40,687 nucleotides of DNA from a virus: positions 1 to 40,687 of the IMG/VR virus record IMGVR_UViG_3300032246_002280; one strand, written 5' to 3'. The first letter of the stretch is position 1. The number at the start of each line of letters is the position of its first letter. Below the pieces are notes generated by a model. That model was given only the letters and a program-made list of their open reading frames with translations. It was not told where the DNA came from and searched no databases. Shown one piece after another: positions 1-20,152 of the stretch. Made by a program: the position numbers and the translations under genes.

Positions 1-336
1 ATAATGAATAAAAATTATTATCAAAAAGCTTTTGAAGCAATAAATGTTTCTAACTATTTAGTTTTCTCCGATACAATTGATTACGCAAAACAAATTTTTA
101 ACGAATTTAAAGACATTAATTTTACTTATATAGAAAATAATCATGCATTTGAGGATATGTATCTTATGTCTAGTTGTCAGAATAATATTTTAGCTAATAG
201 TAGTTTTGCTTGGTGGGCTGCTTATATAAATAAAAATAACAATAAAATCGTAGCACCATCGAATTGGTTTGGTCCAGCATATAATGGTCAATGGAGATTT
301 GACGATCTCATACCACAAGATTGGATTGTAATATGA
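1..336 (+). CDS. GT11 alpha-1,2-fucosyltransferase-like, C-terminal part (cut by window edge)
   Basis: The visible 110 residues match the C-terminal half of family 11 glycosyltransferases, which move fucose from GDP-fucose to a sugar acceptor. The signature is the run MSSCQNNILANSSFAWWAA followed by KIVAPSNWF, preceded by a VFSDTIDYAKQIF segment equivalent to the family's 'FSDD..W' motif. The frame is open to the first base, and family members are usually close to 300 residues, so the true start lies upstream of the window. It ends by an ATGA overlap with the next gene, so the two are probably translationally coupled. GDP-fucose supply would fit the GDP-mannose 4,6-dehydratase encoded downstream. 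Family assignment is good; linkage and acceptor are unknown. Confidence 0.75.
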   Translation: MMNKNYYQKAFEAINVSNYLVFSDTIDYAKQIFNEFKDINFTYIENNHAFEDMYLMSSCQNNILANSSFAWWAAYINKNNNKIVAPSNWFGPAYNGQWRFDDLIPQDWIVI

Positions 337-1211
337 GTAAAGTAACTTGGAATATCTTAGATGGTCATTTTGCACATGAAAAATATTCCGTAGCTGGTAG
401 AGATGCAGAGTATATAAATTGGGACAGACAATTAAAAGATCTAAATAATTCTACATTCTACTCTCATATGGAAATGTTTAAGATAGATCAACTAAATACT
501 CCTAAAGGAAATTCATATGGATTAATCTTTGAATCAAGAGGTATTGATTTACAAACATATAGTTCTGTAGAACAATTAATACCAAAATTTAATAAAGTGT
601 TTACTCATAATTCTGAATACTTAAAAAAATATGAAAATTGCAAATGGATTCCTGGTGGAGGAATATGGGTTGGAGGAAGATCAGATACACCCCATGCAGA
701 AGGTGAAATAAAAATACAAGAGAAGACTAAACTTTGCTCAATTGTTTCATCTAATAAACAAATGTGCAGAGGCCATTTAACTAGATTACAAATCATGAAT
801 CTAGTAAAAGATAATAATAAAATAGATAAATTTTTTGGAGTTGGTGGACCAAGTGATAACTCTGGATGGATACCAATTTTTAGATCCTTAAAGGATTATA
901 TGTTTTCAATTGTAATTGAAAATTATGTAGATGATTTATACATAACAGAGAGAATATTAAATTGTTTTGCTACTGGTACAATACCAATATATCTAGGCGC
1001 ACCAAATATAGGGTCAATTTTTAATGAAAAAGGTATAATTCAACTAGTTAACTTATCATCAATAGAAGAATTTAATAATATCATTAATAACTTAACTCCA
1101 GAATTTTACTACGATAGAATAGATGCAATTAAGGAAAACTTTGAAAAGTGCAAGCAATATAAGTCGATAGAAGATTACATCTATTTAAATTATTTGCAAA
1201 ATTCAAATTAA
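333..1211 (+). CDS. GT10 fucosyltransferase-like glycosyltransferase
   Basis: A 292-residue protein with the C-terminal signature of family 10 (alpha-1,3/1,4-fucosyltransferases): FSIVIENYVDDLYITERI followed by GTIPIYLGAPNI, near residues 190-230. In this family the segment holds the GDP-fucose binding residues, with the pattern ENs..dYvTEK..na...g.vPV..G. I start it at the ATG overlapping the previous TGA (ATGA) rather than at the TTG four codons upstream, because this junction type recurs through the island. It has no signal peptide or membrane segment, so it should act in the host cytoplasm. Two unrelated fucosyltransferase families lie side by side here. Donor specificity is inferred from the family only. 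Confidence 0.72.
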   Translation: MSKVTWNILDGHFAHEKYSVAGRDAEYINWDRQLKDLNNSTFYSHMEMFKIDQLNTPKGNSYGLIFESRGIDLQTYSSVEQLIPKFNKVFTHNSEYLKKYENCKWIPGGGIWVGGRSDTPHAEGEIKIQEKTKLCSIVSSNKQMCRGHLTRLQIMNLVKDNNKIDKFFGVGGPSDNSGWIPIFRSLKDYMFSIVIENYVDDLYITERILNCFATGTIPIYLGAPNIGSIFNEKGIIQLVNLSSIEEFNNIINNLTPEFYYDRIDAIKENFEKCKQYKSIEDYIYLNYLQNSN

Positions 1212-1221
1212 GACATATAAT
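1194..1221 (+). promoter_or_regulatory. Putative promoter for the methyltransferase gene
   Basis: TTGCAA (1194-1199), a 16 bp spacer and TATAAT (1216-1221). The -10 ends 5 nt before the ATG at 1227, so a transcript from it would be leaderless or nearly so. The -35 lies inside the end of the upstream gene. Confidence 0.45.
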
Positions 1222-1226
1222 ACTAT

Positions 1227-2000
1227 ATGCTACAGCTACAAAGCAGTATTAGTGATACTCAAAGGTATAAGAATGCTTGCCAAATGGCGGCTTTAAATGA
1301 TTTTTATTTTAGCTTTTTTAAGCAAAATCCATATTATACTGAAATCCTAGAGCATGTTTCAGAAGATCAAGGAAAACTTTATAAACAGTATCTCGATCAA
1401 AACTTTCCAGAATATACCTTTAAACTAGATAAATTTAAAGAAAATGACCTATATGGTGGTACTAAACTATTTAATTATGATGGAATTGGTCAAGTATCAC
1501 CTACAACATTAAGATATATAAAAGTATTATCCGATTTAAAACAATTATATGGCAGTTTGGATAATTTTAATATTGTTGAAATTGGAGTTGGATATGGTGG
1601 ACAATGCAAGATTATATCGGATTTTTTCAATATTCAAAATTACTACCTAGTAGATTTAGATGAATCTTTAAACTTAGCGGAGAAATATTTAAACAAACTG
1701 AATGTAAACAACGTAAAAGTAGTAAGACCAAATGACATTGTTTCATTGAATAAAAAATTCGATTTGGTTATTAGCAACTATGCTTTTACAGAAATATCTA
1801 AAACAATTCAAGAGTTTTATTTAAATAATATTATTCTTAAATCTAGTCGTGGATATATAACTTGTAACTTTATAAGTCAGTATTGTAATATTGATTCTTA
1901 CTCTCTTCAAGAACTTGAAGTTAAACTAAATCATTTCAATACTAAAAAATTAGAAGAATTCCCTCTTACTCATAAAGATAACTTAATTTTGTATTGGTAA
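1227..2000 (+). CDS. Putative sugar O-methyltransferase (class I SAM-dependent)
   Basis: A 257-residue protein with a Rossmann-type methyltransferase core beginning near residue 115. Motif I is VEIGVGYGGQCKI, the acidic ribose-binding loop is YYLVDLDESLNLAEKYL, and a later strand reads FDLVISNYAFTEIS. This combination, with an N-terminal helical region containing LFNYDGIGQVSPTTLRY, resembles the 'putative sugar O-methyltransferase' family found in polysaccharide loci. It would transfer a methyl group from SAM to a hydroxyl of a sugar. It lies between glycosyltransferase genes and ends one base before the next start (TAATATG). The methyltransferase fold is secure; the sugar substrate is inferred from motif and context. 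Confidence 0.7.
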   Translation: MLQLQSSISDTQRYKNACQMAALNDFYFSFFKQNPYYTEILEHVSEDQGKLYKQYLDQNFPEYTFKLDKFKENDLYGGTKLFNYDGIGQVSPTTLRYIKVLSDLKQLYGSLDNFNIVEIGVGYGGQCKIISDFFNIQNYYLVDLDESLNLAEKYLNKLNVNNVKVVRPNDIVSLNKKFDLVISNYAFTEISKTIQEFYLNNIILKSSRGYITCNFISQYCNIDSYSLQELEVKLNHFNTKKLEEFPLTHKDNLILYW

Positions 2001-2001
2001 T

Positions 2002-2703
2002 ATGAACTTTACTTTTGGAATAATAACATCTCAAGATGATATTTTAAATACTTTAGCTCCAATAATAAATTCAATTAGAGATTTGAATATTCTTAATTAT
2101 GAAATAATCATAATCGGCGGAAATAAAGATTATCAATCAGATAGTTTAAGTATTTATTCATTTGAAGAAAATCCTAACGGAGGATGGATAACTAAAAAGA
2201 AAAATTTAATAACAAAATATGCAAAATATGAAAATATAGTATATTTACATGATTACATTATTTTTGATAAGGATTGGTATATAAACTTTCTAAAGTTTGG
2301 AAATGATTTCAAAATTTGTATGAATCAAATTATAAATCCAGATGGAACGAGATTTAGAGATTGGACTCTTTGGGCTGAATCTGCAGAAGAAATAGGAATA
2401 CCTAATCCATATTATCTTATACCTTATAGTATAAAAAATTTATCGAAATTAATGTATTTTTCTGGCTCGTATTGGATAGGGAAAAAAAATATTATGGAAG
2501 AATTTCCATTAAATGAAAATCTATTCTGGTGCCAAGGAGAAGATGTAGAATGGTCTAAAAGAATAAGGCAAAAATATAATTTTTCAATAAATGAAAATTC
2601 AAAAGTTCAGCTTTTAAAATATAAAAATCCAGCTTTTTTGAATTGTAATAATTTACAAAAAATTAAAGAAATAAATGAAACAAAACAATATCATAATATA
2701 TGA
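2002..2703 (+). CDS. GT-A (GT2-like) glycosyltransferase
   Basis: A 233-residue protein with a nucleotide-diphospho-sugar transferase layout. An N-terminal strand (FTFGIITSQDDI) is followed by YEIIIIGGN, then NGGWITKKKNLITKYA, which corresponds to the 'G.s.arN.gi..a' segment of GT2 enzymes. An acidic DXD-like site lies in VYLHDYIIFDKDWY, and a late acidic motif WCQGEDVEWSKRIRQKY resembles the catalytic-base 'ED' motif of GT2. It has no membrane segment. It starts one base after the previous stop and overlaps the next gene by ATGA. Donor and acceptor cannot be read from the sequence. Confidence 0.7.
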   Translation: MNFTFGIITSQDDILNTLAPIINSIRDLNILNYEIIIIGGNKDYQSDSLSIYSFEENPNGGWITKKKNLITKYAKYENIVYLHDYIIFDKDWYINFLKFGNDFKICMNQIINPDGTRFRDWTLWAESAEEIGIPNPYYLIPYSIKNLSKLMYFSGSYWIGKKNIMEEFPLNENLFWCQGEDVEWSKRIRQKYNFSINENSKVQLLKYKNPAFLNCNNLQKIKEINETKQYHNI

Positions 2704-3656
2704 ATAAAGAAATAACAATAAATTATCTTCCACATGGGAGATTCAGATACGCACCACATTTTATCAATGAAATAATTAAAGTCAAAGATTCAGTTAAAGA
2801 TTTAATCAAAGTAAATTTAATGTTCTCCGATCCATTTAATGAAGAATGGCAAAAAATGGTAAATTTTTTAAAAAATCACGGAATATATTCAGAATACTTT
2901 GTTACAGATGGTGGTCATTATATGAATAAAATAAAAACCGCTTCAGAAAATAGTGGCAAATACGCTATTAAATATGATGAAGATATCTTTTTAAATGCAA
3001 AAGGATGGGAGTATTTCCTAGAAAATTCAAAAGTTTTAGAAAATGACGAAAATCTTTTTCTTGCTCCAATTATTACAAATGGAATACCAACTGTTGATAT
3101 TTTTATAGACCAATTTTTTGATGAAAAAGCCAAAAAAGAAATTCATGATTTATTTTTAAAAGTACCATTCGGAAATGAATGGGGAGTTGATTATTCTAGT
3201 TTAAGAAAATATGTAACAGAAGCAAATGAATGGATTCCAGATAATTTTTATGAAGGGATTAAGCAAATCAATCATCATTATAAAGGTATACATCCTATTC
3301 GTTTATCTGGAGAAGCTCAATACTATATGGTGAATTATATATTAAATAATTTTGAAAGATTTATGGAGCCAAAAAATTATTCTATCTCCGAAGTCAAGAG
3401 ACCATATCATTGCAATGGAATTATGATGATAAAAAATGAAACATGGAAAAAAATTCTTTACAATCAATCTCTCTTTAGAGATGATTTTGATGAAGTTCCG
3501 TTTAACTTATATAGACAATCTAATAATTTAAAAATGTTATTTATTAATAACTGTTTCGCAGTTCACCCATCTTATAATACAATTGATGGAAAGGGTTTTT
3601 GTTATACTCATCTTTCAGATGTATTTTTTAATCATTCATATTTTATTAAAAATTAA
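2700..3656 (+). CDS. Glycosyltransferase-like protein, GT-A type
   Basis: A 318-residue protein without a confident named family. A DXD-like acidic motif lies in KYAIKYDEDIFLNAKGWEYF (near residues 95-115), and the preceding helix GHYMNKIKTASENSGKY occupies the position where GT-A enzymes have 'N.a...a.g.y...lD.D'. The C-terminal half includes a conserved-looking HCNGIMMIKNETWKKI segment, like the 'G..m..r...w' region of GT2-type proteins. ATGA overlap upstream and TAATG overlap downstream place it in the same translationally coupled series. I call it a glycosyltransferase from the acidic motif and neighbours; acceptor and donor are unknown. Confidence 0.5.
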   Translation: MNKEITINYLPHGRFRYAPHFINEIIKVKDSVKDLIKVNLMFSDPFNEEWQKMVNFLKNHGIYSEYFVTDGGHYMNKIKTASENSGKYAIKYDEDIFLNAKGWEYFLENSKVLENDENLFLAPIITNGIPTVDIFIDQFFDEKAKKEIHDLFLKVPFGNEWGVDYSSLRKYVTEANEWIPDNFYEGIKQINHHYKGIHPIRLSGEAQYYMVNYILNNFERFMEPKNYSISEVKRPYHCNGIMMIKNETWKKILYNQSLFRDDFDEVPFNLYRQSNNLKMLFINNCFAVHPSYNTIDGKGFCYTHLSDVFFNHSYFIKN

Positions 3657-4300
3657 TGAAAAATGTTTGCTTTTATCATTTAGCAACAATAGGCAACTAT
3701 CAAAAGATTACTGATGATATTTTTGGTTTGCTGGATAAAAGTAAATTATATGAAAGATTAGATCATATATTTATCAATATAGCTGGAAATGAAAAAGTTA
3801 TATTACCAAATAAAGAAAAAATTTCAATTTTTCAAGAAATAGCAGAATTAAATGAGTTTGAGTTTAGTACTATAAATAGAATCAAAAAATATGCAGACCT
3901 AGACTTAGACGAATCTAATATATTATATCTTCAAACGTTAGGATGCACGGCAGAAAATAATATATGCATAAATGAAAGAAGAGATTATATGTTATATTTT
4001 AATATAGAAAAATATCAAAAAGCTTTAGATTCTCTAAAAGAAAATGATGCAATAAGCGTTGATCTTGTAGATTACCCAGTAAAACACTTTTCTGGTAATA
4101 TTTGGTGGTCAAAATCATCTCATATTAAAAAATTGCCATACCCAGTAGAATTGCCTTTTATATTTAGCGAAAGGCATAAGTGCGAATTTTGGATATGCAG
4201 TAATCCTAATGGTAAATACGAAACAATGCATCAAACAAATATAAATGTACATGCAAGGCATTTAAATAGATATCCTAGAGAAAAATACGCAAATGATTAA
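3656..4300 (+). CDS. Glycosyltransferase-like protein of unknown specificity
   Basis: A 214-residue protein. The start (MKNVCFYHLATIGNYQKITDD) and the C-terminal segment HFSGNIWWSKSSHIKKLPYP, followed after a short gap by SERHKCEFWICSN, resemble small glycosyltransferase-like proteins of capsule loci and large viruses, in which an H.sGNfWW motif precedes a charged R..EfWi motif. The acidic cluster DLDLDESNILYLQTLG may be the metal or nucleotide site. Its TAATG junction upstream and 8 bp overlap downstream tie it to the same operon. The motif similarity is from memory and the catalytic activity is unproven. Confidence 0.45.
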   Translation: MKNVCFYHLATIGNYQKITDDIFGLLDKSKLYERLDHIFINIAGNEKVILPNKEKISIFQEIAELNEFEFSTINRIKKYADLDLDESNILYLQTLGCTAENNICINERRDYMLYFNIEKYQKALDSLKENDAISVDLVDYPVKHFSGNIWWSKSSHIKKLPYPVELPFIFSERHKCEFWICSNPNGKYETMHQTNINVHARHLNRYPREKYAND

Positions 4301-5672
4301 ATTAATCATTTTTGATCTTGATGGAGTATTGATTGATGCTCGAGAAATTCATTACGAAGCTCTCAATAGAGCTATATCTTTAATTGGAAAAGATTTTATA
4401 ATAAATAAAGAAGAGCATCTGTCCACGTATGATGGATTACCAACCAAAAAGAAATTAGAACTACTATCTAAAAATAAAAACTTACCAATAGATAACCATA
4501 GCTTGATTTGGGATAATAAACAAAAATTTACAATAGAAGTAATCAACGAAACAGTAAAAGAGGATGAAAGAATTAAATCTATACTTAAACAATTAAAGGA
4601 AAGTGGATACAAAATATATGTAGCATCCAATTCTATCAAAGAAACCATAAAAACTATATTACTAAGAAAAGGATTTATTGAGTATATTGATAATTATTAC
4701 TCTAACGAAGATGTTAAAAATCCTAAACCTAAAGCTGAAATATATTTAAAATGCATGATTGACGCTGGAGTTGATCCAGATGAATGCTTAATAATTGAGG
4801 ACTCAATAGTTGGCAGAAAAGCCGCTATAAAATCTGGAGGAAATTTGCATCCAGTATTAAATACAAATGATATTAATCTACATAAAATAATAGATAATAT
4901 AAATAAAATCAATAATAATAAAATAATGAAGCCCAAATGGAAAGATGATAAAATGAAGGTATTAATTCCAATGGCTGGAGCAGGAACTAGATTTGAAAAA
5001 GCTGGGTATACATTTCCTAAGCCTCTTATAGAAGTAAGAGGTAAGCCAATGATTCAAGTGGTTATTGATTCTATTGGCATTGATGCAAAACATGTATTTA
5101 TCGCTCAAAAAAGTCATTACGAAAAATATAACCTAAAAGATACATTAAATTTAATTAGTTTAAATTGCGAAATAGCCCTAACAGAAGGATTAACTGAAGG
5201 GGCAGCTTGCACAACTTTATTAGCCAAGGAGTATATAAATAATGATCAACCTCTTCTTATTGCGAATTCAGATCAATACGTAGATTGGGATAGCAATGAA
5301 TTCATGTACTCTATGATGGCGGATAATATTGATGCTGGAATTTTAGTTTTTGAATCAACTCACCCTAAGTGGAGTTTTGCAAAATTAGATGAAAATGGAT
5401 TTGTATCTGAAGTAGCCGAGAAAAAACCAATTAGCAATCTAGCGACAGTTGGAATTTATTTCTGGAGAAAAGGTTCTGACTATATAAAGTACGCAGAGCA
5501 AATGATTTCTAAGAACATTAGAGTAAATAACGAGTTTTATGTTTGCCCAGTATTCAATGAAGCAATTCAAGATGGTAAAAAAGTAAAAGTATTTAAAATT
5601 GGAAATGATAAGATGTGGGGAATTGGAACACCAGAAGATTTAAATTATTTCTTAGAAAATTATAAATCATGA
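4293..5672 (+). CDS. HAD phosphatase fused to sugar-phosphate nucleotidyltransferase
   Basis: A 459-residue bifunctional protein. Residues 1 to about 205 form a beta-phosphoglucomutase-like HAD domain: nucleophile motif FDLDGVLIDA (Asp8, Asp10), motif II VASNS, lysine motif NPKPKAEIY and motif IV CLIIEDSIVGRKAAIKSGG. A low-complexity Asn/Lys linker follows. A second domain starts at Met221 with KVLIPMAGAGTRFEKAGYTF, then PKPLIEVRGKPMI, the nucleotide-binding P-loop of RmlA/GlmU-type nucleotidyltransferases, and has LLIANSDQYVDWDS as the catalytic Asp region. The likely role is making an NDP-sugar, with the HAD domain acting on a sugar phosphate of the same route. Internal ATGs at 4926 and 4953 could allow the second domain to be made alone. 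Each domain is clear; the substrate is unknown. Confidence 0.8.
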   Translation: MIKLIIFDLDGVLIDAREIHYEALNRAISLIGKDFIINKEEHLSTYDGLPTKKKLELLSKNKNLPIDNHSLIWDNKQKFTIEVINETVKEDERIKSILKQLKESGYKIYVASNSIKETIKTILLRKGFIEYIDNYYSNEDVKNPKPKAEIYLKCMIDAGVDPDECLIIEDSIVGRKAAIKSGGNLHPVLNTNDINLHKIIDNINKINNNKIMKPKWKDDKMKVLIPMAGAGTRFEKAGYTFPKPLIEVRGKPMIQVVIDSIGIDAKHVFIAQKSHYEKYNLKDTLNLISLNCEIALTEGLTEGAACTTLLAKEYINNDQPLLIANSDQYVDWDSNEFMYSMMADNIDAGILVFESTHPKWSFAKLDENGFVSEVAEKKPISNLATVGIYFWRKGSDYIKYAEQMISKNIRVNNEFYVCPVFNEAIQDGKKVKVFKIGNDKMWGIGTPEDLNYFLENYKS

Positions 5673-6490
5673 ATAATTCTTGTATATTGGCTCCAATTCA
5701 CGAGCCAGATTTTAATACATATGGATTAGATTTTATACAGACTTATAATAATTTTTTTAAAGACGATCATATTTTTTTAGTTTTTTCTAATGAAAAAGAA
5801 TCTAATTTATTTAAATCGATAGCTGGAGATCTTAAATATAAATCTATTGTTTCTACTGAACAGATGGGCGAAAGACCAATAACTCAAAAAAAATTTTTTG
5901 GATTAAGGTATATATTCAAAAACACATCTTTTGATAAAGTTGGAGTTATAGATATTGACACAGCTTTTCTTAAGCATATAGATTACGATAATTGTTTTAA
6001 AAATTATATAAAAAATAAAAAAATATACGCTGGATTTGGAACACATCCTCATATAAAAAATATTATATCAAGTCCATTAAAATTTTTTGGAGCAGAAGAT
6101 AAAGAAAAAATAAAAAAGGTTACGCATGATTTAAATGCATATTTTTGGTTTAATGATATTCCTATTTATTCAAAAGATAATTTTTTAAATTTCATAAAAT
6201 ATATTAATTATGAAAATAGAATTAATGATCTACTACCCATAGATTTTGATTATATTATTTACGCATATTATCTATTTGTTAAAGATTTAGCTAAACTAGA
6301 ATTAATAAATATCAATGGCCAAATCCCAAGTACACCATGCAGTTTTATTGAACAGCAACATTTATCAGATCCAGTATTTTTTGAAGAAGCGGTCAAGAAG
6401 TACAAACCAATGTGGTTAAAGTATGATATAAATCAAAATGCAATGGAAAATGTCTTTATAAGACTTCATATACATTCTCCATACAAGTAA
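5669..6490 (+). CDS. Glycosyltransferase with DXD motif
   Basis: A 273-residue protein that looks like a GT-A enzyme. Its N-terminus CILAPIHEPDFNTYGLDFIQ is followed by a KKFFGLRYIF helix, then KVGVIDIDTAFL (near residues 90-100), a strand ending in a D-x-D-T metal site. The later segments FWFNDIPIYSKDNF and LLPIDFDYIIYAYYLF suit the acceptor side. It has no membrane helix. Its start overlaps the fusion gene's stop (ATGA) and its end is followed by TAATATG. Specificity is unknown, and similarity to any single CAZy family is weak by eye. Confidence 0.55.
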   Translation: MNNSCILAPIHEPDFNTYGLDFIQTYNNFFKDDHIFLVFSNEKESNLFKSIAGDLKYKSIVSTEQMGERPITQKKFFGLRYIFKNTSFDKVGVIDIDTAFLKHIDYDNCFKNYIKNKKIYAGFGTHPHIKNIISSPLKFFGAEDKEKIKKVTHDLNAYFWFNDIPIYSKDNFLNFIKYINYENRINDLLPIDFDYIIYAYYLFVKDLAKLELININGQIPSTPCSFIEQQHLSDPVFFEEAVKKYKPMWLKYDINQNAMENVFIRLHIHSPYK

Positions 6491-6491
6491 T

Positions 6492-6917
6492 ATGAAGATA
6501 ATATCCCACAGGGGAAATTTAAATGGCCCAAATCCATCCACTGAAAATTCTATACCAGTTATAAATATAGCTTTATATCATGGATTTGATGTAGAAATAG
6601 ACATATGGTACAAAGATAACAATTGGTATCTTGGTCACGACAAACCCCAATATCTCATAGACGAATCTTTTTTACAAAATAAAAAATTATGGTGTCATGC
6701 AAAAAATTTAGATTCATTTAACTTAATGCTAAAAAATAAAAAGATAAACTGTTTTTGGCATCAAAATGATGATTTTACATTGACTTCAAAAGGTTATATT
6801 TGGACTTATCCCTCGAAAGAGACAAAAGATAATTCTATTATTGTATTAACAAATAAAAAAGATAAAATACCCAAAAAATGTTTTGGAGTATGCACAGATT
6901 TTCCATTAATATATTAA
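6492..6917 (+). CDS. Short GDPD-like (glycerophosphodiester phosphodiesterase fold) protein
   Basis: A 141-residue protein carrying the N-terminal hallmarks of the GDPD/PI-PLC TIM-barrel superfamily: ISHRGNLNG (first catalytic His), STENSIPVINIALYHGFDVEIDIW (metal-binding E-x-D) and WYLGHDKP (second His). Canonical GDPDs exceed 220 residues, so this is about half a barrel. Either it is a reduced form, as seen next to sugar genes in some polysaccharide loci, or it has lost its C-terminal half. The frame itself is intact. It could trim phosphodiester-linked groups on a glycan, but that is only a contextual guess. Confidence 0.6.
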   Translation: MKIISHRGNLNGPNPSTENSIPVINIALYHGFDVEIDIWYKDNNWYLGHDKPQYLIDESFLQNKKLWCHAKNLDSFNLMLKNKKINCFWHQNDDFTLTSKGYIWTYPSKETKDNSIIVLTNKKDKIPKKCFGVCTDFPLIY

Positions 6918-6920
6918 AAT

Positions 6921-6953
6921 ATGATAATTGATAAAAATATTTGGGGAACATAA
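6921..6953 (+). CDS. Possible 10-codon micro-ORF ahead of the dTDP-glucose dehydratase gene
   Basis: ATG at 6921 opens a 10-residue frame (MIIDKNIWGT) that ends in TAA, 2 nt before the ATG of the next gene. It begins 3 nt after the previous stop, the same spacing used by real coupled genes in this island. It may be a leader peptide, the stub of a deleted gene, or chance. No homology can be judged at this length. Confidence 0.25.
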   Translation: MIIDKNIWGT

Positions 6954-6955
6954 AG

Positions 6956-7930
6956 ATGAAAATAATAGTAACTGGTGGACTTGGTTTTATTGGTTCTAAT
7001 TTTATTAAATATATAATTAATAAAAAAGAAGTAGATCTTATAATAAATATAGACACAATAACGAAAAGAAATTCTGCAGCCAACAAGAAGAATGCGGAAT
7101 CTTTTGAAAATCATCAAAAGTATAAATTTTATGATTTCTGGTTGGATATTTTGGACTATGCTCCTTCAAAAGACGAATTTAAAAGAATAATAAAACAAAA
7201 CCAAATAACTCATATAGTTCATTTTGCCGCTGAATCTCATGTAGACAATTCAATATCTGATCCAAGAAGATTTATTCAATCTAATATATTAGGTACATTT
7301 AATCTATTAGAAATTATTAGAGATTTTCCAGAAATTAGATTTCATCATATTTCTACCGATGAAGTTTACGGTAGTTTAGGTGAAGAAGGCAAGTTTACAG
7401 AAACAACAGCTTATGCTCCAAATTCGCCTTATTCTGCATCAAAAGCTGCTAGTGATATGCTAGTTAGAGCTTATAATCATACATTTAAAAGTTTAATTAC
7501 AATTTCAAATTGCTCCAATAACTATGGCCCAAATCAACACAATGAGAAATTTATACCAGTTGTTATAAATTCAATACTAAATAATAAAAAAATACCTGTT
7601 TATGGCAATGGAAAAAATGTAAGAGATTGGATTTTTGTTGACAATCATTGTGAAGCAGTATGGTCTATACTAAATAATGGTAAAATTGGCGAAACATATA
7701 ATGTAGGTGGAAATTGTGAAAAAACAAATCTAGAGATTATTAATGATATTTGCGAAGTATTAAATGTTAATCCTAAAGATTATATTTCTTTTGTAGAAGA
7801 TCGCAAAGGACATGATTTTAGATATGCAATAGATAATACTAAAATAAACAAAGAACTAAACTGGTATCCAATAACATCTTTTAAAGATGGATTAAAACAA
7901 ACAATTGATTTTTATAAAAAATTGTTATAA
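6956..7930 (+). CDS. rfbB: dTDP-glucose 4,6-dehydratase
   Basis: A 324-residue extended SDR that converts dTDP-glucose to dTDP-4-keto-6-deoxyglucose with NAD+. Visible signatures are TGGLGFIGSNF (NAD-binding GxxGxxG, residues 7-13), HFAAESHVDNSISDP, the catalytic STDEVYGS with Asp-Glu, YSASKAASD (Tyr159 and Lys163) and SNCSNNYGPNQHNEKFIP, all characteristic of RmlB/RfbB. The start is the ATG after GGGGAACATAAAG rather than the TTG five codons upstream, because MKIIVTGG is the usual N-terminus. The product is the branch point for rhamnose and other deoxysugars. No RmlA or RmlC is recognisable here, unless the upstream nucleotidyltransferase fusion supplies the activated sugar. Confidence 0.9.
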   Translation: MKIIVTGGLGFIGSNFIKYIINKKEVDLIINIDTITKRNSAANKKNAESFENHQKYKFYDFWLDILDYAPSKDEFKRIIKQNQITHIVHFAAESHVDNSISDPRRFIQSNILGTFNLLEIIRDFPEIRFHHISTDEVYGSLGEEGKFTETTAYAPNSPYSASKAASDMLVRAYNHTFKSLITISNCSNNYGPNQHNEKFIPVVINSILNNKKIPVYGNGKNVRDWIFVDNHCEAVWSILNNGKIGETYNVGGNCEKTNLEIINDICEVLNVNPKDYISFVEDRKGHDFRYAIDNTKINKELNWYPITSFKDGLKQTIDFYKKLL

Positions 7931-7939
7931 TATAACAAT
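7905..7939 (+). promoter_or_regulatory. Putative promoter with palindrome before the GDP-mannose dehydratase gene
   Basis: TATAAT (7926-7931) overlaps the TAA stop of rfbB and ends 8 nt before the next ATG. The only -35 candidate is TTGATT (7905-7910), with a short 15 bp spacer. The -10 sits inside a perfect 7 bp inverted repeat, TTGTTAT / ATAACAA (7922-7928 and 7932-7938), which could be an operator or a weak hairpin. Confidence 0.35.
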
Positions 7940-9079
7940 ATGAGTCAGAATTTTAAAGAAACCTATTATGGTAAAAAGATAGATACTTCTAATATTCTTA
8001 ATATTGAAGATGCAAGTAAAATTATTAATGGAAGAAGAACAATAGTAATAACTGGAGTTACTGGTCAAGACGGAAGTCATATGGTTGACTTTTTGCTTAA
8101 AAATACAGATTATCTTATTTTTGGTGGAGTAAGAAGATTAAGCGTATATAATCATGAAAATATTAAACATATTAAATCTGATAGATTTCATCTTATTAAT
8201 TTTGATTTGACTGATTCTCATGCTATATCTAGAACCGTAGAAAAACTCCAACCTGATTATTTTATTAACTTTGCTGCTCAAAGTTTTGTTGCAAGTAGCT
8301 GGGATTTTGCTAGACAAACTTGGCAAACTAATTCTACGGCAGTTCTTGATATTTTAGAAGCCATAAGGCTTTATAAACCATCTTGCAGACTCTACCAAGC
8401 TGGCTCGAGTGAAGAATTTGGAAATGTACAATATGCTCCACAGGATGAAAATCATCCATTAAAACCAAGAAGTCCATATGGAGCAAGCAAAGCAGCCTCT
8501 AGACAATTAGTTAAAGTATATAGGGAATCTTACAACACTTACGCTATTCAAGGTTGGCTTTTTAATCATGAAGGAACTAGACGAGGCGAAGAATTTGTTA
8601 CTAGAAAAATTACAAAAAATGTAGCAAGAATTTACAATGCGATTAAAGATAATAAAGAATTTAAGCCACTTGAATTAGGAAATATAGACGCAAAAAGAGA
8701 TTGGAGTGATGCAGAAGATTTCGTAGAAGGCGTTTGGATGATGTTAAATCAAGATAAATATAATGCAAATTATGATGGAGTACCAAAAGAATATATTTTC
8801 TCATCAAACGAAACACATACGATTAGAGAGTTTGCAGAAAAAGCTTTTGCTTGCGCTGGAATTATTGGCGAATGGATTGGTGAAAAGGAGCACGAAGTAT
8901 ATCTATCTAAGGATAAGAAAGTGTTAATTCAAATTAATCCTAAATTCTATAGGCCAGCAGAAGTAGAGCTTTTGCTTGGAGACTCTAATAAAGCTAGAAA
9001 AGAATTAAACTGGAAACCTAAATCATCATTTAATGATCTTATTGAAAAGATGGTAAAAAATGATATTGAAAATTTATGA
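7940..9079 (+). CDS. gmd: GDP-mannose 4,6-dehydratase
   Basis: A 379-residue SDR that makes GDP-4-keto-6-deoxymannose, the precursor of GDP-fucose, GDP-rhamnose, GDP-perosamine and GDP-colitose. Signatures are TGVTGQDGSHMVDFLL (NADP-binding loop near residue 39), NFAAQSFVASSW, AGSSEEFGNVQ, SPYGASKAAS with catalytic Tyr180, and GWLFNHEGTRRGEEFVTRKI, which is diagnostic for Gmd (usually FNHESPRRGE; here the Ser-Pro is changed). An N-terminal extension of about 33 residues precedes the Rossmann core. The product would feed the fucosyltransferase-like genes at the left end of the window if a GDP-fucose synthase is available. It overlaps the next gene by ATGA. Confidence 0.92.
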   Translation: MSQNFKETYYGKKIDTSNILNIEDASKIINGRRTIVITGVTGQDGSHMVDFLLKNTDYLIFGGVRRLSVYNHENIKHIKSDRFHLINFDLTDSHAISRTVEKLQPDYFINFAAQSFVASSWDFARQTWQTNSTAVLDILEAIRLYKPSCRLYQAGSSEEFGNVQYAPQDENHPLKPRSPYGASKAASRQLVKVYRESYNTYAIQGWLFNHEGTRRGEEFVTRKITKNVARIYNAIKDNKEFKPLELGNIDAKRDWSDAEDFVEGVWMMLNQDKYNANYDGVPKEYIFSSNETHTIREFAEKAFACAGIIGEWIGEKEHEVYLSKDKKVLIQINPKFYRPAEVELLLGDSNKARKELNWKPKSSFNDLIEKMVKNDIENL

Positions 9080-9930
9080 TATTATTAATTGGATCTAGCG
9101 GTTATATTGGTAGTGAATTTGTTAAACAATTAAATAAAAAAAATATAAAGTATTATACTTTATCATATAAAAGAGCAAATTTTAAAAATATAAAATCATT
9201 ACATGATACTTACAATATAAAATATTTAATTAATTCTGCAGCTTTTGTTGGAAAACCAAATATTGAAGCATGTGAGTCTCAAAAAGATAAATGTATAGAA
9301 GGTAATATTTTACTTCCTATTTCATTAAAAAATATATGTGAACAATTGAATATAATCTATTGCCACATTTCAACTGGATGCCTTTATAATGGAGTTGCTA
9401 GTGAATTAAATGGATACAAAGAAACAGATGAACCTAATTTTAATTTTAAATATAATAACTGCGGTTTTTATACAGGAACGAAGGCTCTAACAGAAGACCT
9501 AATTAAATCATATGAAGAAAGCTATATTTGGAGAATAAGACTACCATTCGAACAATTTAATAATGATAGAAACTATATATCAAAAGTTATAAAATATGAT
9601 ACTTTAATTACAGAAAAAAATTCATTAAGCAATAAAAGTGAATTTGTAAATGCATGCATAGAAAGTATATTAAAAGAAATACCTTTTGGAATATATAATA
9701 TAACTAATACAGGATCTATATCTGCGCTTGATATTTTTGAAAAAATTAAAAAAACAATAATGCCAAACAAAAAAGCCAACTTTCTAACAATGGATGAATT
9801 TTATAATAAAATAAGCTCCATGCCTCGATCAAATTGTATTACAGATAATTCAAAAATAAGATCCACAGGCATTAAAATGTTAGATGTAAACGAATCGGTA
9901 GACCTTTGCCTCAAAGATTGGATTTGGTAA
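9076..9930 (+). CDS. RmlD-like NAD(P)-dependent sugar reductase/epimerase
   Basis: A 284-residue atypical SDR related to dTDP-4-dehydrorhamnose reductases and bifunctional 4-keto-sugar epimerase/reductases. It begins ILLIGSSGYIGSEF (GxxGxxG), then has YLINSAAFVGKPNIEACES, CHISTGCLYNG and FYTGTKALTEDLI, where Tyr-x-x-x-Lys supplies the catalytic pair. The C-terminal part includes GIYNITNTGSISALDIFEKI, equivalent to the substrate-domain 'GiyHltg.g..S..efa' of RmlD. Sitting directly after Gmd by ATGA overlap, it could reduce the 4-keto sugar made by Gmd or RmlB. Which nucleotide sugar it takes cannot be decided here. It ends with a TAATATG junction. Confidence 0.7.
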   Translation: MILLIGSSGYIGSEFVKQLNKKNIKYYTLSYKRANFKNIKSLHDTYNIKYLINSAAFVGKPNIEACESQKDKCIEGNILLPISLKNICEQLNIIYCHISTGCLYNGVASELNGYKETDEPNFNFKYNNCGFYTGTKALTEDLIKSYEESYIWRIRLPFEQFNNDRNYISKVIKYDTLITEKNSLSNKSEFVNACIESILKEIPFGIYNITNTGSISALDIFEKIKKTIMPNKKANFLTMDEFYNKISSMPRSNCITDNSKIRSTGIKMLDVNESVDLCLKDWIW

Positions 9931-9931
9931 T

Positions 9932-11059
9932 ATGAATACTATTATTGATCTAGGAGAAATACCTTTAGTGAATAATCTGTGTCTCACTAAAGAAGAGTCT
10001 TTGAATTGTAAAAAATTTCCATTAAAAATAATTCAAAAAGAAGATCTAATTATGAAATTAGAATTAGAAATTAATTCTAATGATATGTTCTTCAACTATC
10101 TTTATAGAACGGCAGTAAATACTCCCTATGTAGATCATTGTAAAAAAATGTGGAAACAATTAGAAAAATATAACCCTAAAACTATAGTTGATATTGGAGG
10201 TAATGATGGATCTTTATTAAAATGTTTTAGATCAGAATCAAAGAGTAATTTAAAATTAATAAATGTTGACGCTAGTTCATCTTTTAAAGAAGAAAATGAA
10301 AAAGATGGAATTATATACTATAATGCTTATTGGGGAGATTTTGTACTTGATGAAAAAATAGACTTAATTACATCGACAAATGTATTTCAACATAATCCAG
10401 ATTATCGTAAATTTTTGAAAGGCATAAAAGATAATTTAAATGGCATTTGGGTTTTAGAGTTTCCATATTTCTTACATACTGTTGAAACTAATCAATTTGA
10501 TCAAATTTATCATGAACACGTTTATTATTGGTTAGTAACACCTTTAGTTAAATTATTCAGAGAATATGGTCTAAAAATACAATCAATTGAACAATATGAT
10601 ATGCATGGTGGATCTCTTAGAATCATATCTTCTAATAAATCTGATGATATAGAAAATTCACAAATTATTAATTATTATTTAAATAAAGAAAAAGATTATA
10701 ATTTTAAGAATTGGGGGAAACAAACAGCAAATAAAATAATTCAAGATTTTAATTTCATAAACTCATTAAATGGTAAAATTGCTGTATTTGGTGCAGCTGC
10801 AAAGGGTTGTGTTTATTTAAATAGTTTAAATATCTCAAATAAAATATCATATATTGTAGATGACACAAAAGAAAAGCAAAACAAATTTTGCCCAGGAACT
10901 GGATTAAGAATTGTTGATAGGGAATATTTCTACAAAGATAATCCAGATTATTTGATTATTTTAGCTCATAATTTTAAGAATTATATAATTGAATCAATAA
11001 GAAATGGTAGATTTAAAAATAGAATTATAACTATGATACCAGATATAGAAATATATTGA
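9932..11059 (+). CDS. NDP-sugar C-methyltransferase
   Basis: A 375-residue protein with the three-part plan of TylCIII/NovU-type deoxysugar C-methyltransferases. The N-terminal segment IIDLGEIPLVNNLCL resembles the substrate-binding domain start. The SAM-binding core has TIVDIGGNDGSLLK and LINVDASS. The family hallmark QFDQIYHEHVYYW contains the catalytic His-Glu-His. A C-terminal Rossmann-like domain begins GKIAVFGAAAKGCVYLNSL. These enzymes add a branching methyl to the carbon next to a 4-keto group. The N-terminus is short and lacks the usual zinc-binding CxxC pairs. The TGA stop (11057-11059) lies inside the -35 box of the next promoter. Confidence 0.82.
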   Translation: MNTIIDLGEIPLVNNLCLTKEESLNCKKFPLKIIQKEDLIMKLELEINSNDMFFNYLYRTAVNTPYVDHCKKMWKQLEKYNPKTIVDIGGNDGSLLKCFRSESKSNLKLINVDASSSFKEENEKDGIIYYNAYWGDFVLDEKIDLITSTNVFQHNPDYRKFLKGIKDNLNGIWVLEFPYFLHTVETNQFDQIYHEHVYYWLVTPLVKLFREYGLKIQSIEQYDMHGGSLRIISSNKSDDIENSQIINYYLNKEKDYNFKNWGKQTANKIIQDFNFINSLNGKIAVFGAAAKGCVYLNSLNISNKISYIVDDTKEKQNKFCPGTGLRIVDREYFYKDNPDYLIILAHNFKNYIIESIRNGRFKNRIITMIPDIEIY

Positions 11060-11084
11060 CATTTATATATAAAAATATTAAAAT
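11056..11084 (+). promoter_or_regulatory. Strong promoter for the 3-dehydrase gene, predicted leaderless
   Basis: TTGACA (11056-11061), exactly 17 bp, then TAAAAT (11079-11084). The -10 ends 6 nt before the ATG at 11091, so the expected first transcribed base is the A of ATG. The -35 contains the upstream TGA stop. No Shine-Dalgarno sequence is present. Confidence 0.65.
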
Positions 11085-11090
11085 CATATA

Positions 11091-12395
11091 ATGACAAAAA
11101 AAGATAAGATTCTAAATTTCATAAACTCTCTTGAACAAGAAGAGAATACGTTTATTCCACAATTTTGTCATAATTTAAAAGATACAAAAAATAAAGTATA
11201 TTATGGTGGGCCTTCTTATACAAAAGAAGAACTTGTAGAAGCTATAGATACTCTTTTATTTGGTAAATGGTTAGCTAGTGGTGAAAATGTAGCTAGATTT
11301 GAAAAAGAGTTCTCCAAGAGAATTAATGAAAAATATTCTGTCATGGTTAATTCTGGCAGTTCCGCTAACCTAGTAATGATCGCAGCACTTAAGAAGCATT
11401 TTAATTGGAAAGATAATGATGAAATTTTATTATCCGTAGTAGGTTTTCCAACTACTTTAAATCCTATTATTCAAAATAACTTAAAACCAGTATTCGTAGA
11501 TATTGAATTTAATACATTAAATTTTGATCTAAATCAATTAGAAACTAAAATAACTAAAAACACAAAAGCTATATTTATCTCTCCTGTTTTAGGTAATCCA
11601 CCAGATTTTGATAAACTTATTGAAATTTCTAAAAAATATAATATTGAATTAATTCTTGATGGGTGCGATAGCTTTGGAAGCAAATGGAAAGGTAAACATT
11701 TAAATGAATACTGCGTAGCCTCTAGTTGTTCTTTTTATCCAGCGCATCACCTTACTACTGGCGAAGGTGGAATGGTTTCTTCTAATATCGAAGATATTAT
11801 TAAATTAGCTAGAAGTTTTGCTTGGTGGGGAAGAGATTGCTATTGCATTGGTAGTTGTAATCTATTAAAAAATGGAAGCTGTAACGCTAGATTCTCTAAT
11901 TGGATCAAAGAAGTTCCATATAATATTGATCATAAATACTTCTTTACTCAAATTGGTTATAACTTGAAACCTTTAGATTTACAAGGCTCGATTGGTTTAG
12001 TCCAATTAAAAAAGATGGACGAATTTCACAATGCAAGAGTATCAAATAAAAATAAGATTCAAGATATCTTATCTAAAATTCCTAACTTAAAGTTTCCATC
12101 TGTTTTTGAAAACGCAGATGTTTCTTGGTTTGGAGTGCCTATCATTTGTGGCTGCTATCTCTCTAAAAACAATCTAGTAAATCATTTAGAAGAAAATGGA
12201 GTTCAAACTAGAAATTATTTCGCAGGAAATATACTTCTACATCCAGCTTATAAACATTTAGAAGATTGGAGGAATTATCCTAATGCAAATGCTGTTCTTG
12301 AAAAAGTATTTTTTGTAGGATGTTCTCCAACTATTGGTGAAGATAATATAAAGTATATACAAGAAGTTGTAAATGCATACGAGTCCAAGCATTGA
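11091..12395 (+). CDS. RfbH/E1-type NDP-4-keto-6-deoxyhexose 3-dehydrase (PLP plus Fe-S)
   Basis: A 434-residue member of the DegT/DnrJ/EryC1 PLP family. In SFYPAHHLTTGEGGMV the aminotransferase lysine is replaced by His (His219/His220), the mark of the deoxygenating 3-dehydrases RfbH/AscC (E1) and ColD. Unlike ColD, it also has the E1 cysteine pattern: Cys192, then exactly 57 residues, then Cys250-x-Cys252, with Cys256 and Cys264 as candidates for the fourth ligand. In Yersinia E1 the pattern is C-X57-C-X-C-X7-C around a [2Fe-2S] cluster; here the last spacing is X11 by a small insertion, or X3 using Cys256. It removes the C3 hydroxyl on the way to 3,6-dideoxyhexoses. It needs an electron-donating reductase, and none is visible here. 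Confidence 0.85.
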   Translation: MTKKDKILNFINSLEQEENTFIPQFCHNLKDTKNKVYYGGPSYTKEELVEAIDTLLFGKWLASGENVARFEKEFSKRINEKYSVMVNSGSSANLVMIAALKKHFNWKDNDEILLSVVGFPTTLNPIIQNNLKPVFVDIEFNTLNFDLNQLETKITKNTKAIFISPVLGNPPDFDKLIEISKKYNIELILDGCDSFGSKWKGKHLNEYCVASSCSFYPAHHLTTGEGGMVSSNIEDIIKLARSFAWWGRDCYCIGSCNLLKNGSCNARFSNWIKEVPYNIDHKYFFTQIGYNLKPLDLQGSIGLVQLKKMDEFHNARVSNKNKIQDILSKIPNLKFPSVFENADVSWFGVPIICGCYLSKNNLVNHLEENGVQTRNYFAGNILLHPAYKHLEDWRNYPNANAVLEKVFFVGCSPTIGEDNIKYIQEVVNAYESKH

Positions 12396-13200
12396 TCTAT
12401 TTGGTGGAACTGGTTTTGTAGGTTCTAATTTTTACAACTTATATAAGGATGAAGTTTACGTTCATCCAAGAAATCATAACGTACCATATTATAAAAATAT
12501 ATTGTACATGATTAGTACTACGGATAATTACAATGTGCTAGAAGATCCATATAAAGATATAAATACAAATTTAATTAAATTGATGGACGTTTTAGATAAC
12601 TGTAAGAATAAAGATGTAATTTTTAATTTTGTAAGCTCTTGGTTTGTTTATGGAGATACCGATCTACCAGCTAAAGAAACTTCTTATTGCAATCCAAAAG
12701 GATTTTATTCTATTACAAAAAAATGTGCAGAAGATTTATTAATAAGCTATTGCAAAACTTTTAATATCAAATACAGAATATTAAGAGTTGCAAATGTTTA
12801 TGGTAACAATGACTCTGGAACTTCTAAAAAGAAAAACGCACTAACCTATTTAATCAACAAAATAAAAAATAATGAAGAAATTAATTTATATTTCAATGGA
12901 TATTTCATAAGAGATTATATTCATGTAGAAGATACTTGTAAAGCTATTAAACTATGTTTAGATAAAAGTCAAATTAATGATATTTATAATATTGGTAATG
13001 GAGAACCTATAGTCTTTAAAGATATTATAGATTATGTAGTCAAACAAACTAATTCAAAATCAAATATAATTCCTATCGACCAACCAGAATTTCACAGAAT
13101 AGTTCAAGTTAAAGATATGTATTTAGATACCACTAAAATAAATAGTCTAGGATTCAAAAAAGATATTGACATTTACCAAGGAATTAGTAAACTATTATAA
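12373..13200 (+). CDS. Extended SDR: NDP-sugar reductase/epimerase
   Basis: A 275-residue SDR with FGGTGFVGSNF (nucleotide-binding loop), FNFVSSWFVYGD, YSITKKCAEDLL (catalytic Tyr-x-x-x-Lys) and RVANVYGNNDSG, followed by YIHVEDTCKAIKLCL and IYNIGNGEPIVFKDI, as in GalE-like and abequose/paratose-synthase-like enzymes. It overlaps the 3-dehydrase gene by 23 bp. In known 3,6-dideoxyhexose clusters such an SDR directly follows RfbH and reduces the C4 keto group. That order supports, but does not prove, the same job. The 23 bp overlap is longer than most junctions here, but the start is forced: the next in-frame ATG is far inside the fold. Confidence 0.72.
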   Translation: MHTSPSIDLFGGTGFVGSNFYNLYKDEVYVHPRNHNVPYYKNILYMISTTDNYNVLEDPYKDINTNLIKLMDVLDNCKNKDVIFNFVSSWFVYGDTDLPAKETSYCNPKGFYSITKKCAEDLLISYCKTFNIKYRILRVANVYGNNDSGTSKKKNALTYLINKIKNNEEINLYFNGYFIRDYIHVEDTCKAIKLCLDKSQINDIYNIGNGEPIVFKDIIDYVVKQTNSKSNIIPIDQPEFHRIVQVKDMYLDTTKINSLGFKKDIDIYQGISKLL

Positions 13201-13523
13201 TGAGTCAGCATAAGCTTTGTCAATTTATAACTAAAAAACATATAAAAGATAACATAAATTGGCCAAGAGAAATTAAGATCGCTCAAAGATTAACTAAAAG
13301 ATTCAAAGAGTTTGAATTTTGGGATAACTTAAGAGATTTTAAACTTCCATCATTAGCTTGGTTTCTTAAAAGCGAGGGTAAAGCTTTCTTATTATCAGAA
13401 TATGAGAAATTTAAATTAAATTTAAATGTTGAAACAGTAAAACTAGAAGAAAATAAAGTTCAAGACGATAAAAAGATTTGCAAAAAGCCTAAAAGTTTGA
13501 TAGAATTTATAAGACAAAAATGA
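13200..13523 (+). CDS. Hypothetical small basic protein
   Basis: A 107-residue lysine-rich protein I do not recognise. The N-terminal two thirds look helical with conserved-looking aromatic positions (NINWPREIKIAQRLTKRF, FEFWDNLRDFKLPSLAWFL), then a charged tail ending KPKSLIEFIRQK. It has no signal peptide, membrane span or metal motif. It is bound to its neighbours by TAATG and ATGA junctions, between the SDR and a glycosyltransferase gene. It could be an accessory to either, or a stray phage gene; function unknown. Confidence 0.6.
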   Translation: MSQHKLCQFITKKHIKDNINWPREIKIAQRLTKRFKEFEFWDNLRDFKLPSLAWFLKSEGKAFLLSEYEKFKLNLNVETVKLEENKVQDDKKICKKPKSLIEFIRQK

Positions 13524-14227
13524 AAAATATAGCCCTTACCTCTGCGATAAACTATAATGATTATTTAAAAATTTTTAAACAACATAATTATGATTATTTC
13601 GATGAAATATATGTGGTCACAGATACAAATCAAGACAATGAATTAGAAGAAATATGTAATGATGTTAAATTTAAATTAATAAAAACTGATAAATTTTATA
13701 CTTTTCAAAATCAACCAGCAAAATTTAATCGAGGAGCAGCTTATACATATGCTATGAGCTTGGTTAAAGATCCAAAGATTATTACAATTATAGATGCTGA
13801 TACTTTATTGCCAGAAAGTTATCATAATATATTTACAGAATTAAAATCAAAAGATAATTTTGACCAGATGATAAGTGCTAGAAGGTTTGTTTTAGAGACT
13901 TATCAAGATTATTCAAAAGTATTTCTAGAAAAAGATTCTAATTACAAATTAGAAATGAGAAGTTTTGATTGGGGTTGGGGATATTTACAAATTTTCCACG
14001 CAAAAAGCAAATGGTTAAAAAATGGCCTTGTATATCCAGAAAATTATGATTGTGCAGTATCAGATTTTATGTTTAGAAGACAATTTGGATGGCATATTTT
14101 TAGACAAGATACAGAAGAACATTATTGGGATCCAGAGGCACAAATATGCTTGAGGCAATTTCCAGTATATGGTCTAGGCCCAAACAATATTAATTCAAGA
14201 GGTCGCCGTGCGCCAGAATTTAAATAA
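13520..14227 (+). CDS. GT-A (GT2-like) glycosyltransferase
   Basis: A 235-residue single-domain GT-A protein. The segment PAKFNRGAAYTYAMSLV matches the 'fnra.a.N.g...a' helix of GT2/GT7-like enzymes and is followed by ITIIDADTLLPES, a clear DXD metal site near residue 95. The C-terminal motif FDWGWGYLQIFHAKSKWL resembles the 'GwG...' acceptor-side loop of family 7-like domains. It has no membrane segment. It is the last gene of the glycan block; six bases after its stop the promoter of the recombinase gene begins. Donor sugar unknown. Confidence 0.68.
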   Translation: MKNIALTSAINYNDYLKIFKQHNYDYFDEIYVVTDTNQDNELEEICNDVKFKLIKTDKFYTFQNQPAKFNRGAAYTYAMSLVKDPKIITIIDADTLLPESYHNIFTELKSKDNFDQMISARRFVLETYQDYSKVFLEKDSNYKLEMRSFDWGWGYLQIFHAKSKWLKNGLVYPENYDCAVSDFMFRRQFGWHIFRQDTEEHYWDPEAQICLRQFPVYGLGPNNINSRGRRAPEFK

Positions 14228-14232: not shown

Positions 14233-14260
14233 TTGCATTTTGTTAAAAGAAAGGTATAAT
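14233..14260 (+). promoter_or_regulatory. Promoter of the RecA-like gene, predicted leaderless
   Basis: TTGCAT (14233-14238), 16 bp, TATAAT (14255-14260), then 6 nt to ATG at 14267. This spacing argues for 14267, not the TTG at 14240, as the true start, because the TTG lies upstream of the -10 box. Confidence 0.6.
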
Positions 14261-14266
14261 AAAATT

Positions 14267-15825: not shown

Positions 15826-15828
15826 GTG

Positions 15829-15834
15829 TAAAAT
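15829..15834 (+). promoter_or_regulatory. -10-like element of the AGTGTAAAAT type
   Basis: TAAAAT ends 6 nt before the GTG start at 15841. The wider string TTTAAGTGTAAAAT recurs exactly at 30287-30300 ahead of the tail-tip operon. No good -35 box is present, so if functional this would be an activated or second-class promoter. Confidence 0.35.
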
Positions 15835-15840
15835 TTTGTA

Positions 15841-16101: not shown

Positions 16102-16104
16102 AAC

Positions 16105-16133
16105 TTGACTTTTAATTTCTAGTTTGGTATCAT
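16105..16133 (+). promoter_or_regulatory. Strong promoter of the helicase gene
   Basis: TTGACT (16105-16110), exactly 17 bp, TATCAT (16128-16133), then 9 nt to ATG at 16143. It lies entirely within the 41 bp between two genes. The untranslated leader would be at most 2-3 nt. Confidence 0.65.
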
Positions 16134-16142
16134 ATATAAAGG

Positions 16143-20145: not shown

Positions 20146-20152
20146 GGTAAAA

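Follow-up and report, generated by a model that had tools for sequence, protein, structure and literature searches.

What does a tailed phage do with a block of sugar genes set beside its replication genes, and which molecule would carry the resulting sugars? The question is raised by the IMG/VR record IMGVR_UViG_3300032246_002280, all 40,687 bases of which make up the stretch analysed here (the window; about 27% G+C, no end repeats). Its first 14,227 positions hold 17 densely packed genes on one strand, the cassette, which an earlier note made from the letters alone had described as a near-complete deoxysugar factory. Across relatives, this cluster is a cassette of fixed position, anchored by the GDP-mannose 4,6-dehydratase Gmd and by a small 108-amino-acid (aa) protein beside RecA. 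We tentatively favour, at a little under an even chance, the idea that it is a modular cytoplasmic glycan locus, swappable between relatives, whose product would decorate the virion.

The relatives were found by a polymerase search of IMG/VR, which gave at least 80 contigs and 179 candidate stretches, and their loci were compared both as 20-kb stretches and as whole contigs. Genes were called in them with a simple open reading frame (ORF) caller and none of the records is known to be complete, the absence of a gene meaning throughout its absence from the sampled sequence. Replication genes are about 60-100% identical among relatives, with one deeper pair near 47-70%, whereas gene content changes wholesale to the left of RecA. 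The layout in one subgroup comprises semi-conserved GT4, GT2, GT17, GT25 and GT11 glycosyltransferase genes, a variable middle, Gmd, the 108-aa protein and RecA. As many as 219 protein families were counted in 32 loci, 122 of them singletons; among the genes that vary are those for GT8, GT32 and GT47 glycosyltransferases, TylF-like methyltransferases, aminotransferase-like and Fcl-like enzymes. The Gmd cluster itself occurs in 30 of the 32 loci, and a PF16363 match in 43 of 44 records. Even a distant relative, with 50% identity in polymerase III, retains the order Gmd, RecA and, further on, polymerase III, with GT4 and GT9 genes downstream.

A turnover so extreme would suit passenger genes or stuffer DNA acquired from hosts and of little function, and “stuffer DNA” has been proposed for cyanophage lipopolysaccharide (LPS) genes (PMC3037559). 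Nevertheless, we hold this to be very improbable. The cassette genes are under purifying selection: the ratio of nonsynonymous to synonymous divergence (dN/dS) is mostly 0.03-0.25, a few pairs reaching 0.36, and since nearly all genes fall in that range the cassette is not a product of chance. Moreover, active-site motifs are intact, Gmd is present in nearly all relatives, and in some of them it bears intein-like insertions, inteins usually being found in indispensable genes.

These insertions in Gmd are in frame (L212:15117-17300 (+) and L237:12856-16197 (+); one in genome G016, two in G043), start with Cys, end with HN or GN and lie in conserved active-site motifs, which is unusual for a sugar enzyme. 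Large in-frame insertions, probably inteins as well, were seen in the DnaB (816 aa) and ThyX (559 aa) proteins of genome G018 (L186).

How the cassettes came to differ is suggested by three comparisons, in which core identity is the mean over 15 core proteins. The window and genome G001 are 94.3% identical in the core and have 2 of the 17 cassette genes in common; for G002 the values are 96.4% and 7 of 17. With G023 the core is 80.9% identical, and 15 of the 17 cassette genes are in common, at 86.4%. Furthermore, the window and G023 differ less at synonymous sites in the cassette (mean pS 0.45) than in the core (0.63; one-sided Mann-Whitney p = 6e-5, with genes treated as independent). Because gene content and divergence both lead there, the data point to horizontal exchange, cassettes being swapped between relatives. 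In view of this exchange, the earlier conclusion that the cluster is not a fresh acquisition, drawn from a base composition matching that of the replication genes, is not supported. Base composition was rejected as a test of acquisition, the exchange partners being equally AT-rich relatives.

The tail-tip genes L to J at 30863-36929 of the window are 95-100% identical to those of G002, with a synonymous divergence (dS) of 0.02-0.12; most core genes differ from G002 by a dS of about 0.4, which suggests recent tail-tip recombination.

By its gene content the window is a genuine tailed-phage contig. Homologues of the lambda tail-tip proteins M, L, K and J, together with a tape-measure fragment, occupy 30319-40685 of the same contig, and this answers the alternative, raised beforehand, of a bacterial chromosome. 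Replication genes at 14240-24335 encode UvsX/RecA-like, DnaB, ThyX, primase, PD-(D/E)XK nuclease, PHP, exonuclease and DnaE-type polymerase proteins; polymerase III alpha itself lies at 20144-24335, with its PHP domain and exonuclease encoded in separate ORFs. From the cassette through the replication genes to 28835 all genes are co-directional with gaps of at most 41 bp, in agreement with the tightly coupled frames described earlier, and because of the common strand and the short gaps the cassette is probably co-expressed with replication. The contig starts inside the GT11 gene and the cassette is therefore cut at its left edge; further left in relatives there are GT4, GT2, GT17 and GT25 genes.

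No close relative was found among 50,697 deposited phage records, and the sole close match in cellular collections is a contig of phage origin assigned to a Flavobacteriaceae metagenome-assembled genome. Two phage-like, GT4-bearing sequences, L238 (CAKZOO010000058.1) and contig 140 of G044, are binned in one such genome, a weak hint at the host; the GT4 gene is absent from every other genome of Flavobacteriaceae among the 299 searched. A short PurA-type adenylosuccinate synthetase, present in 19 of 44 records, lies with an IMP-dehydrogenase-like gene near ribonucleotide reductase genes (L164:11770-12765 (-), L165:559-1668 (+)). The PHROGs label invited a PurZ (2-aminoadenine) reading, which was rejected because the protein resembles PurA more closely and has an intact WGDEGKGK motif. 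A five-segment membrane protein resembling the SdpB family occurs near some cassettes (L228:874-1755 (+); G033, G037).

The genes of the cassette, and the recombinase gene that bounds it, are the following.

1-336, + strand: GT11-family glycosyltransferase, C-terminal 111 aa only (PF01531, 55.8 bits; full-length homologues in relatives about 270 aa)
321-1211, + strand: GT10-family, fucosyltransferase-like glycosyltransferase (PF00852, 43.1 bits, cut-off 23.9; matches solved alpha-1,3-fucosyltransferases)
1227-2000, + strand: putative sugar O-methyltransferase of NanM type (TIGR04371, 94.6 bits, cut-off 44)
2002-2703, + strand: cassette protein, GT-A-like motifs by eye only (no Pfam, NCBIfam or PHROG match; homologues in cassettes of 4 relatives)
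2700-3656, + strand: cassette protein (no family match; AlphaFold confidence score, pLDDT, 41; dN/dS 0.06 against G023)
3656-4300, + strand: cassette protein (nothing above a curated cut-off; 97% identical in G023, dN/dS 0.05)
4293-5672, + strand: fusion of a haloacid dehalogenase (HAD) beta-phosphoglucomutase-like phosphatase and a sugar-1-phosphate nucleotidyltransferase (PF13419, PF00483; best PDB match 4evw)
5669-6490, + strand: cassette protein, DxD motif by eye only (no family match)
6492-6917, + strand: small protein of a conserved phage family, glycerophosphodiester phosphodiesterase-like by eye (phrog_34507, 96 bits)
6941-7930, + strand: RmlB, nucleoside diphosphate (NDP)-glucose 4,6-dehydratase (TIGR01181, 415 bits, cut-off 365)
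7940-9079, + strand: Gmd, GDP-mannose 4,6-dehydratase family (PF16363, 352.6 bits; best PDB matches all Gmd enzymes)
9076-9930, + strand: bifunctional 3,5-epimerase/4-reductase type, NRS/ER-like (4qqr E = 4e-34; 7jid E = 3e-16)
9932-11059, + strand: sugar C-methyltransferase, TylC3-like (PF08484, 81 bits; D-mycarose 3-C-methyltransferase 4rv9 E = 7e-29)
11091-12395, + strand: E1/RfbH-type pyridoxal phosphate (PLP)/[2Fe-2S] 4-keto-6-deoxyhexose 3-dehydrase (3bcx E = 6e-77; NF011936, 376 bits)
12373-13200, + strand: epimerase/reductase of the short-chain dehydrogenase/reductase (SDR) family, partner of the 3-dehydrase (PF01370, 103 bits; adjoins RfbH in most relatives having RfbH)
13200-13523, + strand: small 108-aa protein, right-hand anchor beside RecA (in 32 of 32 loci of relatives)
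13520-14227, + strand: GT2-like glycosyltransferase, sub-threshold (PF13704, 25.0 bits, cut-off 27.5)
14240-15409, + strand: RecA/UvsX-like recombinase, right-hand boundary of the cassette (PF00154; phrog_97, UvsX-like)

Which sugars could these genes provide? Family matches bear out RmlB, Gmd, the 3-dehydrase, the SDR, both methyltransferases, GT10 and GT11 as named in the earlier note, and its other assignments fared less evenly. GT10 and GT11 are fucosyltransferase families and Gmd belongs to the GDP-L-fucose pathway (TIGR01472, 330 bits, under its equivalog cut-off of 415), which had suggested GDP-fucose donors; their presence stands, and the reading itself is weakened. The search for a GDP-fucose synthase (Fcl/GMER) came to nothing in the window, its best protein reaching 51 bits against the NF047922 cut-off of 500, and fucosylation is therefore unproven.

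The protein at 9076-9930, formerly called an RmlD-like reductase, has more in common with bifunctional enzymes that act as 3,5-epimerase and 4-reductase. It scores 122 bits with one of these, 4qqr, 63 bits with the UDP-L-rhamnose synthase 7jid, which we take to be the mimivirus enzyme, and 30 bits (E = 4e-6) with RmlD 1vl0, and its TGC and YxxxK motifs are in alignment; no match was found among about 50,000 deposited phage records. Neither RmlA nor RmlC, for which a search had been proposed together with GDP-fucose synthase, was identified in the window, and since the 9076-9930 protein reads as bifunctional, a separate RmlC would not be required. RmlB, over its cut-off, and this epimerase/reductase would thus cover the 4,6-dehydratase, 3,5-epimerase and 4-reductase activities of a rhamnose pathway.

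The pairing of RmlB with the C-methyltransferase, once taken to indicate a branched deoxysugar, has lost ground. In three other loci (L321-L323) the epimerase/reductase and the C-methyltransferase travel as a pair near Gmd, and no RmlB or RfbH homologue lies within 6 kb apart from weak cross-matches; because of these neighbourhoods, the pair may use the product of Gmd rather than that of RmlB. The C-methyltransferase has the C-terminal PF08484 and S-adenosylmethionine domains, and no N-terminal zinc-binding Pfam domain was recognised in it. Aligned with 3bcx, the RfbH-type dehydrase carries a His at the position of the PLP lysine and retains the [2Fe-2S] cysteines of E1; its NF011936 score is under the equivalog cut-off of 423. 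The E3-type reductase expected for RfbH was not found by Pfam among the window proteins and may be supplied by the host. In relatives RfbH also occurs without a high-identity RmlB. Full-length homologues of the HAD/nucleotidyltransferase fusion, 58% identical, exist in Synechococcus phages.

As for the transferases, at least six glycosyltransferase-like genes had been claimed, and two or three of six have family support in 1-14227. GT10 and GT11 alone pass curated cut-offs, the GT2-like protein is sub-threshold, and the four at 2002-2703, 2700-3656, 3656-4300 and 5669-6490 gave no profile-profile match to phage glycosyltransferase families (families of 2-5 sequences). A search of solved structures with a GT11 homologue gave no match. 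Two further glycosyltransferase genes lie outside that span, in the backbone of the genome.

24914-26830, + strand: backbone GT4 glycosyltransferase (PF00534) whose C-terminal domain resembles, by eye, the first half of a GT9 enzyme
26845-27996, + strand: GT9-like glycosyltransferase, C-terminal half (PF01075, profile positions 165-229 of 247 only)

It appears that a GT9-like enzyme is split here (24914-27996), its N-terminal half standing at the end of GT4 and its C-terminal half in the next ORF, an arrangement kept in relatives. The backbone GT4 is conserved down to 50% identity in L238. Its AlphaFold model (pLDDT 79.6) has as top fold match 3oy2, a glycosyltransferase of Chlorella virus NY2A. 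For the NY2A enzyme, GDP-mannose has been described as the best-bound ligand (PMC4691112), and 3oy2 is presumably this same protein.

Whether the resulting glycan could leave the cell by phage means was approached through the export families. Hydropathy alone predicts a transmembrane segment in 20 of 506 contiguous cassette genes, and three or more segments in two. The Wzx flippase PF01943 was found in 0 of 44 records (controls matched in 13 of 14), the initiating polyprenyl-phosphate sugar transferase PF02397 in 0 of 44, the polymerase/ligase PF04932 in 0 of 37, and the GtrA flippase PF04138 in 0 of 37 over its cut-off. With nearly all its proteins soluble and none of these export families detected, the cassette is unlikely to be a self-sufficient surface-polysaccharide locus; glycosylation of a phage protein in the cytoplasm agrees best with the data.

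The same result bears on a strong rival, nearly as likely as virion decoration: remodelling of the host surface, in which phage sugars and soluble glycosyltransferases would act on lipid-linked or LPS-core intermediates exported by the host, blocking superinfection or masking the cell. Given that no export family was detected and membrane proteins are few, such remodelling would rely wholly on host export. Also, the cassette sits in the replication operon and no integrase was seen in the window, so a lasting surface change would be of limited benefit. On the other side, this is the usual proposal for LPS-type clusters of cyanophages (PMC9602691); LPS synthesis typically involves relatives of GT25, GT9 and RfbH; and the window and G002 have near-identical tail tips (gpJ 95%) and different cassettes, as if each marked its own cell.

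The earlier note had further listed DNA or protein, besides host surface and virion, as targets, which was sensible, although the DNA part has since lost support. Sugars on phage DNA, as a hypermodified base shielding it from host nucleases, would agree with the linkage of Gmd and GT4/GT9 to the replication block even in the distant relative, and DNA-modifying phage glycosyltransferases are known (among the work cited in PMC12619734). However, no thymidylate-synthase-family enzyme of the 5-hydroxymethyl-base kind (PF00303) was found over cut-off in 44 records, which makes DNA glycosylation unlikely, and the ThyX of the window is of the ordinary flavin type. The Tet/JBP oxygenase PF12851 had no match, but its controls gave none either. 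To our knowledge, at least ten variable sugar genes also exceed the needs of known DNA glycosylation. On balance, we regard this alternative as improbable, somewhat less so than that of passenger genes.

Returning to cytoplasmic decoration of the virion, we infer the sugars, acceptor and purpose as follows. The nearly invariant Gmd would convert host GDP-mannose into GDP-4-keto-6-deoxymannose, a hub compound on the way to several 6-deoxyhexoses. Of the window's enzymes, RmlB and the epimerase/reductase would lead to an NDP-rhamnose-type sugar, RfbH and its partner SDR to a 3,6-dideoxyhexose, with branches and caps supplied by the C- and O-methyltransferases. Soluble glycosyltransferases would then build a short variable glycan in the cytoplasm during phage replication, the likeliest acceptor being a virion protein of the phage itself, with priming by the backbone GT4/GT9 pair. 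The exchange of cassettes between relatives would yield “serotypes”.

Several points weigh against this proposal. The acceptor is a presumed one, and the soluble glycosyltransferases of the cassette could just as well act on lipid-linked glycans of the host, to be exported by the host itself. For four of the cassette proteins there is no family assignment. RmlA, RmlC, GDP-fucose synthase and an E3-type reductase are among the components not identified in the window, although the records may be incomplete and such genes could be present elsewhere. Since GT4 folds resemble one another, 3oy2 is not a specific match.

Glycan variation is the main currency of serotypes at bacterial surfaces. A bolder extension, possible and in our opinion rather doubtful, is that the phages possess a “serotype” system of their own: a widespread lineage would wear a virion sugar coat made from a GDP-sugar hub and a priming glycosyltransferase pair, varied by exchange of whole cassettes, with near-identical replication genes and tail tips and different glycans under frequency-dependent selection. 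If true, phages too would make use of glycan variation, here in a lineage that has numerous relatives in metagenomes and no close phage genome among those deposited. The idea of phage “LPS genes” becomes testable with a fixed site, a near-invariant Gmd, a conserved glycosyltransferase pair and swappable tailoring enzymes, and the cassette is a source of enzymes for unusual 6-deoxy, 3,6-dideoxy and C-branched sugars.

Sugar clusters in phages are already known, as in cyanophages P-SSM2, S-SSM7 and S-SM2 (PMC3037559) and S-SCSM1 (PMC9602691). What is new here is the unsampled lineage, the fixed site with Gmd beside RecA, the evidence of exchange, the conserved GT4/GT9 pair and an epimerase/reductase without a deposited phage match; no description of this lineage, or of such cassette exchange in phages, was found in the open-access literature. 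The clusters of T4-like cyanophages (P-SSM2, S-SSM7, S-SCSM1, S-H68) resemble the present one in having Gmd, RmlB, RfbH-type dehydrase, GT11, GT25 and HAD/nucleotidyltransferase genes; S-H68 has RmlB, RmlC, RfbH, GT11 and GT25 together, its RfbH being 55% identical to that of the window. Unlike those T4-like myoviruses, the window has a lambda-type tail tip and a DnaE-type polymerase. A single anchor site beside RecA is seen in the present lineage, the only one examined for anchoring in this comparison.

Mycobacteriophages offer a precedent for glycans on phage capsid and tail tube proteins (Freeman 2023, as cited in PMC12619734). They differ in having few glycosyltransferase genes. We know of no large nucleotide-sugar cassette in them. 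In turn, bacterial O-antigen and capsule (Wzx/Wzy) loci share with the cassettes their fixed flanks, variable middle, nucleotide-sugar and glycosyltransferase genes and exchange by recombination, and differ in their flippase, ligase and initiating transferase, undetected in the present cassettes; seroconversion of the gtrABC type differs likewise by its GtrA flippase, not found in the present records. Prasinoviruses carry a type-specific block with glycosyltransferases, an epimerase, Gmd and GT17 (PMC12906663), although they are algal viruses, and in their hypervariable region proper adhesion and capsid genes predominate. Autonomous glycosylation in chloroviruses and mimiviruses relies, as it may here, on virus-encoded Gmd, epimerase/reductase and glycosyltransferases (PMC4691112, PMC7826918); these are eukaryotic viruses with proven capsid glycans, whereas the present phages are known from their genes alone. 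Chloroviruses, which combine a conserved multidomain glycosyltransferase with outer capsid-protein sugars that vary (PMC7826918), would constitute the closest functional analogy for a virion glycan.

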